Shown piece after piece: positions 5,955 to 11,051 of a DNA stretch of 33,698 nt; position 1 is the stretch's first letter; each line of letters opens with the position of its first letter. A model generated the notes under the pieces. The model did not search any database. It was not told the origin of the DNA and saw only the letters and a program-made list of their open reading frames with translations. The stretch spans positions 1 through 33,698 of the forward strand of contig SCRJ01000201.1 in assembly GCA_004298115.1 (NCBI GenBank). Reading direction: 5' to 3'. The translations under genes and the position numbers were made by a program. The DNA is from Acidobacteriota bacterium. GTDB lineage: Bacteria; Acidobacteriota; Thermoanaerobaculia; Thermoanaerobaculales; Thermoanaerobaculaceae.

Positions 5955-6042
5955 TCGATCCCCGCCTTCGCGGGGATGACGACGATCGCGTTCCCGTACC
6001 GGACCAACGAGGGCGTGGATCCTCGCCTTCGCGGGGATGACC
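5955..6042 (+). repeat. Two REP-like hairpin elements
   Basis: Two copies of a short palindromic element. The first has stem ATCCCCGC (5958-5965), loop CTTC, stem GCGGGGAT (5970-5977), then GAC. The second is at 6019-6040 with one C-to-T change in the left arm that leaves a G-T wobble. A third, inverted copy lies at 11027-11051. The element resembles the widespread GCGGGGATGAC-type intergenic repeats that yield spurious IPAKAGI translations. The rest of the 5806-6178 interval holds only degenerate CCCGG-type sequence (about 6110-6180). Confidence 0.75.
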
Positions 6043-6178: not shown

Positions 6179-6207
6179 TTGTCAAACGCCGGCCGAGAGC
6201 CTAGACT
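6179..6207 (+). promoter_or_regulatory. Putative sigma70-type promoter of the PFOR operon
   Basis: TTGTCA (6179-6184, five of six to TTGACA) and TAGACT (6202-6207, four of six to TATAAT) are exactly 17 bases apart. Transcription would start near 6214, giving a leader of about 100 bases before the PFOR ATG. A TAGACT hexamer in the same CTAGACTC context occurs ahead of the glycan operon at 23378. Confidence 0.55.
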
Positions 6208-6211
6208 CCGC

Positions 6212-6229
6212 ATGTGAAAGGGTTCACGT
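6212..6229. promoter_or_regulatory. Rex-like operator at the PFOR start site
   Basis: The site ATGTGAAAGGGTTCACGT contains a perfect GTGAA (6214-6218) and TTCAC (6223-6227) inverted repeat with a four-base centre. It closely matches the redox repressor Rex consensus (TTGTGAA, four bases, TTCACAA). It overlaps the predicted transcription start, a position where binding would block initiation. Rex senses the NADH/NAD+ ratio and controls fermentative and PFOR-type genes in several phyla, so the context is apt. No rex gene is in the window. Confidence 0.5.
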
Positions 6230-6313
6230 TGTAGACGCGGACCCGATCGCAGGTCCCGCCCCCCGGAAGGTTTGCAGGATGCGGAGCGGCGCCCCACTTA
6301 AAGGAGGGATGTC

Positions 6314-9904
<3,591 letters not shown>

Positions 9905-9914
9905 GGGGGACACG

Positions 9915-10907
9915 ATGGACCTCTCGACCACGTACCTCGGCCTCGCCCTCGCCAACCCGCTCCTCGCCGGCGCCTCGCCGATGGTGGACGACATGGACAC
10001 CGTCAAGAAGCTCGAGGACGCGGGCTGCGCCGCGATCGTGATGCACTCGCTGTTCGAGGAGCAGATCACGCGCGAGCAGCTCGGCACCGTCATGGACATG
10101 GAGTCGCACGCCGACTCGTTCGCCGAAGCGCTCTCCTACTTCCCGCAGCCGCAGGAATTCCGCCTCGGGCCGGAGTCCTACCTCGAGCAGATCCGCCGGA
10201 TCAAGGCGGCGGTGAAGGTCCCGGTAATCGGCTCGCTCAACGGCACCAGCCCGGCCGGCTGGCTGGACTACGCCAAGCTCATCGAGCAGGCCGGCGCCGA
10301 CGCGCTCGAGCTCAACGTCTACTACCTCGCGACCCAGGCGTGGGAGACGAGCGACGCCGTCGAGCGACGCGCGCTCGACGGGCTCAAAACCGTCAAGCAG
10401 GGCGTCACGATCCCGGTCGCGGTGAAGCTCTCCCCGTTCTACTCCTCGCTCGCCCACCTCGCCAAGCAGCTCGACGACGCCGGCGCCGACGGCCTCGTCC
10501 TGTTCAACCGCTTCTACCAGCCCGACCTCGACGTCGATGAGCTGGAAGTCGTCCCCAGCTTGAAGCTCTCGGACTCCTCGGAGCTGCTGCTGCGGCTGCG
10601 CTGGCTCGCGATCCTCTCCGGCCATGTGAAGGGCGCGCTCGCCTGCTCCGGCGGCGTGCACACGCCGCTCGACGCGATCAAGGCCGTGATGGCCGGCGCC
10701 CACGCGGTCCAGGTCGTCTCCGCCCTGCTCCAGCGCGGCCCCGCGTACCTCGCGACCCTGCGCGAGGGCCTGGCGAGCTGGATGGAGGAGCACGAGTACG
10801 CGTCGGTCGAGCAGATGCGCGGCAGCATGAGCCACCAGAACTCCCCCAACCCGCAGGCGCTCGAGCGCGCCAACTACATGCGCATCCTGCAGGGGTGGAA
10901 GCCGTAG
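9915..10907 (+). CDS. Dihydroorotate dehydrogenase-like flavoprotein
   Basis: A 330-residue TIM-barrel protein of the DHOD family, in the subgroup annotated as dihydroorotate dehydrogenase-like and often found beside PFOR genes. FMN-binding features remain: NPLLAGASPM at the N-terminus, GSLNGTSPAGW (106-115), Asn134, Lys171 (PVAVKLSPF), NRF (198-200) and the phosphate-binding CSGGVHTPLDAIKAVMAGAHAVQ segment. Two residues important in true DHODs look changed. The NLSCP block with the catalytic Cys/Ser reads NVYYL (134-138), putting Tyr137 at the base position. The active-site lysine after strand 2 is missing from VMHSLFEEQ. It is therefore unlikely to be a pyrimidine-pathway pyrD. It starts ten bases after the PFOR stop, behind an AGGGGG ribosome-binding site, so a redox role linked to PFOR is plausible but unproven. 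Confidence 0.85.
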   Translation: MDLSTTYLGLALANPLLAGASPMVDDMDTVKKLEDAGCAAIVMHSLFEEQITREQLGTVMDMESHADSFAEALSYFPQPQEFRLGPESYLEQIRRIKAAVKVPVIGSLNGTSPAGWLDYAKLIEQAGADALELNVYYLATQAWETSDAVERRALDGLKTVKQGVTIPVAVKLSPFYSSLAHLAKQLDDAGADGLVLFNRFYQPDLDVDELEVVPSLKLSDSSELLLRLRWLAILSGHVKGALACSGGVHTPLDAIKAVMAGAHAVQVVSALLQRGPAYLATLREGLASWMEEHEYASVEQMRGSMSHQNSPNPQALERANYMRILQGWKP

Positions 10908-11026: not shown

Positions 11027-11051
11027 GTCATCCCCGCGAACGCGGGGATCC
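11027..11051 (-). repeat. REP-like hairpin element, inverted copy
   Basis: This is the reverse-complement counterpart of the elements at 5955-6042. The stem ATCCCCGCG (11030-11038) pairs perfectly with CGCGGGGAT (11041-11049), and the conserved GTCA flank lies at 11027-11030. It sits between the PFOR operon and the convergent unknown gene, where it may also help terminate transcription. Confidence 0.7.

Follow-up and report, generated by a model that had tools for sequence, protein, structure and literature searches.

This locus raises the question of whether a gene for pyruvate:ferredoxin oxidoreductase (PFOR) is subject to redox repression by Rex, as a sequence-only reading of the window (the whole stretch of 33,698 nucleotides that was analyzed) had predicted. 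That prediction is supported by a rex gene in the host genome, by a conserved operator and by further sites of the same type at redox genes. We assign a probability of about 0.88 to the reading, built from sequence, that a Rex operator lies on the nifJ initiation region, that repression is relieved by NADH, that a small regulon shares the regulator and that the operator overlaps a stem-loop in the leader. The elements of this reading that we infer are Rex binding, the NADH response, the start site, co-transcription of nifJ with the gene after it, and what the hairpin does.

Promoter and candidate operator of nifJ

The features of the locus, all on the + strand, are:

6179..6207, +, promoter TTGTCA-17-TAGACT of nifJ/PFOR, kept in relatives, several of them operator-less
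6212..6229, +, candidate Rex operator ATGTGAAAGGGTTCACGT, spanning the predicted transcription start (about -2 to +16)
6314..9904, +, nifJ, single-chain pyruvate:ferredoxin (flavodoxin) oxidoreductase, 1196 aa (TIGR02176, 1805 bits)
9915..10907, +, dihydroorotate dehydrogenase-like (DHOD-like) gene (NF005741)

Promoter and operator sit in the gap between tRNA-Glu and nifJ. The -35 hexamer TTGTCA (6179-6184) and the -10 hexamer TAGACT (6202-6207) are separated by 17 nt, and together they form the sole sigma-70-like match in 6.5 kb (0.4 expected). A Shine-Dalgarno-like AAAGGAGG stands ahead of the PFOR ATG at 6314. The promoter and the inverted repeat a few bases downstream are present as first read, and the start predicted from the promoter (about 6214) does fall within the operator at 6212-6229.

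The inverted repeat ATGTGAAAGGGTTCACGT agrees with 11 of the 14 specified bases of the Rex consensus and has a perfect GTGAA-N4-TTCAC core; it departs from the 18-bp consensus at base 1 and at bases 17 and 18 (GT for AA). The earlier description of a match in all but the outermost bases thus holds for the core and is inexact for the edges, where one of the three mismatches is not outermost. These three outer-base departures weigh against the Rex reading. When the window was searched with the consensus TTGTGAANNNNTTCACAA, allowing up to 3 mismatches, ATGTGAAAGGGTTCACGT was the single match (0.08 expected); because 8 of 100 shuffles also yielded one match, the operator is only mildly improbable if judged alone, from the window.

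The DHOD-like gene begins 10 bp after nifJ, and the two genes are probably co-transcribed as one operon. The PFOR's closest named relatives come from two Acidobacteriota MAGs, RBG_13_68_16 and one of the Thermoanaerobaculaceae, each with 82% identity. A palindromic repeat, CCCCGCCTTCGCGGGGATGAC, possibly a REP-like element, occurs in three copies in the window (none expected by chance), two of them upstream of the PFOR promoter (5960-5980 and 6021-6041, + strand) and one just past the PFOR-DHOD unit (11027-11047, - strand).

Conservation of the operator among PFOR promoters

The operator was found in all 15 readable PFOR upstream regions of the same family and in 7 of 17 from the sister family, and its place relative to the promoter is constant across these 22, immediately downstream of the -10. 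The GTGAA and TTCAC half-sites are invariant in the 22 promoters of the two families; the 4-base spacer between them is variable (AGGG, ACGG, TTGG, ATGG, GCGG, TTTG, ACCG, ATCG and TAGG were seen). The operator is absent from 10 of the 17 sister-family PFOR promoters and from every PFOR promoter read in the class outside these two families, and rex is present in many of the genomes with an operator-less promoter, so that the link between operator and PFOR is lineage-specific. Since several operator-less PFOR promoters retain the -35 and -10, the operator is a separable module of these lineages.

A predicted leader hairpin that overlaps the operator

In the nifJ mRNA, the transcribed operator would supply the 5' arm of a stem-loop located at the very 5' end:

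6213..6251, +, predicted leader stem-loop with the operator as its 5' arm (-19.7 kcal/mol, z -4.5)

Its stem pairs 6213-6217 with 6247-6251, 6220-6225 with 6239-6244 and 6227-6230 with 6234-6237. Folding was assessed by holding the operator fixed and comparing the following 24 nt with shuffles; mean z was -3.5 in the 22 operator-bearing leaders, which are related and so do not amount to 22 independent tests, and the 64 control combinations averaged 0.0. Across an alignment of 15 leaders, 91.5% of cells in the inner 9-bp stem are paired, compared with 23-40% when slid, and two spacer positions carry changes on both sides of the stem. Covariation in the stem exceeds that of the slid controls and of nearly all shuffles, and the window has a G-C pair where close relatives have C-G. 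The other Rex targets described below lack such a fold, with mean z of -0.8 (iorA), -0.7 (2-oxoacid operon) and about +0.9 (the rest), whereas a weaker tendency to fold is seen in eight operator-less PFOR leaders (mean z -2.2). From these two results the hairpin appears to belong with PFOR rather than with Rex. Outside this order, hardly any PFOR upstream regions fit the promoter pattern used for the leader comparison, and a search of Rfam matched no family to the hairpin beyond a chance-level match.

The main rival to the hairpin reading is that the downstream element complementary to the operator is itself another, degenerate Rex operator, with the hairpin just a by-product of tandem palindromes. 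The genus form of the element, GTGGACCGGTTCGC, has 3-5 mismatches from the Rex core and lies 23-24 bp downstream, and repeated palindromes are always self-complementary. However, the spacing varies, with a loop of 3-10 nt; in four genomes (G009, G011, G012 and G014) the right half is gone but the stem persists; A-to-G changes in the element retain G-U pairing and break the Rex half-site; spacer bases covary, though they are free in Rex sites; and the operator-less PFOR leaders (n = 8, above) often fold well. Because the loop is variable, the changes preserve G-U pairs and the spacer covaries, RNA pairing is favored, and we regard a tandem operator as unlikely.

The hairpin is most likely a protective mRNA leader element, a role suggested by analogy with the known 5' stem-loops of ompA, papA and aprE. 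We lean, by a little, toward the further proposal that selection acts twice on one 16-bp sequence, which would serve in DNA as a Rex operator and in the nifJ mRNA as the 5' arm of a functional leader hairpin; the redox switch and leader-based control (e.g. of mRNA stability) would then use the same bases, and coevolution of the downstream arm would preserve its complementarity. If true, this would be a compact case of DNA- and RNA-level selection on the same bases.

Rex and its candidate regulon

The sequence-only reading had named a rex gene in the genome, and further sites of this type near redox genes, as points to check, and both were found. The host, an uncultured member of the Acidobacteriota, lies near MAGs of the Thermoanaerobaculia type, and its genome (3.97 Mb, 96% complete) holds one intact rex gene, whose 221-aa product, with the winged-helix and NAD-binding domains of Rex, passes the NCBIfam Rex cut-offs, contains both the IRKDLxYFGEFGxRGVGYNV segment and the GAGNLG motif, and aligns to solved Rex proteins over nearly its full length (best PDB match, the solved Rex 5zz5, E 1e-52). 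The host contig extends only 45 bases upstream of rex; in 29 relatives, the neighborhood of rex yielded no Rex site other than two 2-mismatch matches.

Only four sites in the host genome match TGTGAAN4TTCACA with at most 1 mismatch, all of the form YGTGAAN4TTCACR, and they stand before redox or central carbon genes:

Site 1, before PFOR
Site 2 (L002), before an ATPase/ferredoxin/2-oxoacid:ferredoxin oxidoreductase operon
Site 3 (L004), before citrate synthase
Site 4 (L005), between iorA (indolepyruvate oxidoreductase) and ribH

Across 17 family genomes, TGTGAAN4TTCACR was located at 50 distinct positions, and the reversed control gave 0. Among 60 relatives, mean strand matches were 3.0 with rex and 0.5 without (control, 8 in all), a contrast with p of about 1e-4, uncorrected for phylogeny. 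The recurrent targets are PFOR, iorA (8 genomes) and the ATPase/ferredoxin/2-oxoacid oxidoreductase operon (about 10); rarer ones in relatives, in single or double cases, include ackA (acetate kinase, 1), an aldehyde dehydrogenase-family gene and a sulfhydrogenase-beta-like gene (2). At citrate synthase, the site is common to the host and its closest relative only, and a few others have weaker ones. Some TGTGAAN4TTCACR matches fall within predicted coding frames or precede unrelated genes and may be due to chance; one YGTGAAN4TTCACR match, at C94:56249, was set aside as such, lying within a hisD-like coding sequence. The strict site was not found in four extra stretches (L222-L225).

The operator lies after the likely -10 of iorA, fills the -35/-10 spacer of the 2-oxoacid operon and covers the likely -35 of citrate synthase. 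At the main targets the operators thus lie on or adjoin promoter hexamers, positions that would suit a repressor.

Two weaker Rex-like sites stand 276 bp apart (L009 and L010, G000:C65:45873 and 46149), the second just before a gene whose start resembles cytochrome c (CKPCH motif). A Rex-type site is also common to two genomes of one genus (L220 at 2475, L221 at 2457), and the gene after it resembles, by eye, a PLP-dependent sulfur amino acid enzyme.

The palindrome could instead be a CRP/FNR-family site of the TGTGA-N6-TCACA type. TGTGA...TCAC is also a CRP half-site and so fits CRP as well, the host genome encodes four HTH_Crp_2 (CRP/FNR-family) proteins, and it has CRP-like TGTGAT...ATCACA palindromes at other places. 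In other Acidobacteriota, CRP-like palindromes stand before PFOR (TGTGACGAAGATCACA and TGTGATCTAAATCACA, at L082 and L092), which suggests a different PFOR regulator there. However, CRP/FNR sites usually have T/A at the inner bases (TGTGAT...ATCACA) or leave them free, and neither pattern was seen in the 22 PFOR promoters, where the inner A and T of GTGAA/TTCAC are invariant. The operator also lies over the predicted start site, which is no activating position, and site number climbs with the presence of rex. Mainly because the inner A and T never vary, we consider a CRP/FNR site improbable. A chance palindrome without regulatory role, which the rarity of about 8 in 100 in the window alone would allow, is very improbable, since 22 genomes share invariant half-sites at one position around a variable spacer and such sites are enriched genome-wide over the reversed control.

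Proposed mechanism

Under the preferred Rex reading, when NAD+ is abundant a Rex dimer would sit on GTGAA-N4-TTCAC (about -2 to +16) and block initiation or promoter escape. When electron acceptors become limiting, NADH would rise and displace NAD+, Rex would leave, and PFOR would be expressed, probably with the DHOD-like gene. The same Rex would govern a small regulon that combines ferredoxin-linked oxoacid oxidoreductases with genes of central carbon metabolism. A limited literature check found no paper on a Rex regulon in Acidobacteria, and this is apparently a classic Rex regulon undescribed so far in Acidobacteriota. For a class of that phylum with few cultured members, it offers an NADH-responsive regulon that can be tested, one centered on ferredoxin-linked oxoacid metabolism.

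Comparison with known systems

The Rex regulon of Caldicellulosiruptor includes POR and AckA, and its repressed targets have operators on or by promoter elements (PMC8579813). The arrangement here is similar in that Rex-type palindromes overlap or follow promoter elements, as they do at the POR, hydrogenase and pta/ackA operons there, and in both cases repression is read from operator position (PMC8579813). It differs in that the host belongs to another phylum, the regulon core comprises several ferredoxin-linked 2-oxoacid oxidoreductases, citrate synthase is included in two genomes, and a conserved leader hairpin shares sequence with the POR operator.

Binding of S. aureus Rex is enhanced by NAD+ and lowered by NADH (PMC2883068). 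The sites here share half-sites and spacing with those of S. aureus and with the general consensus TTGTGAANNNNTTCACAA (Ravcheev et al. 2012, as quoted in PMC5317091), and likewise lie in or adjoin promoters, whereas their outer bases are relaxed to YGTGAA...TTCACR in a GC-rich host.

The leader is comparable to the 5'-terminal mRNA stem-loops of E. coli ompA and papA and of B. subtilis aprE (cited in the reference list of PMC3997798) in having a stable stem-loop at the predicted mRNA 5' end. Unlike in those systems, the 5' arm here doubles as a candidate repressor operator, and stabilization is putative.
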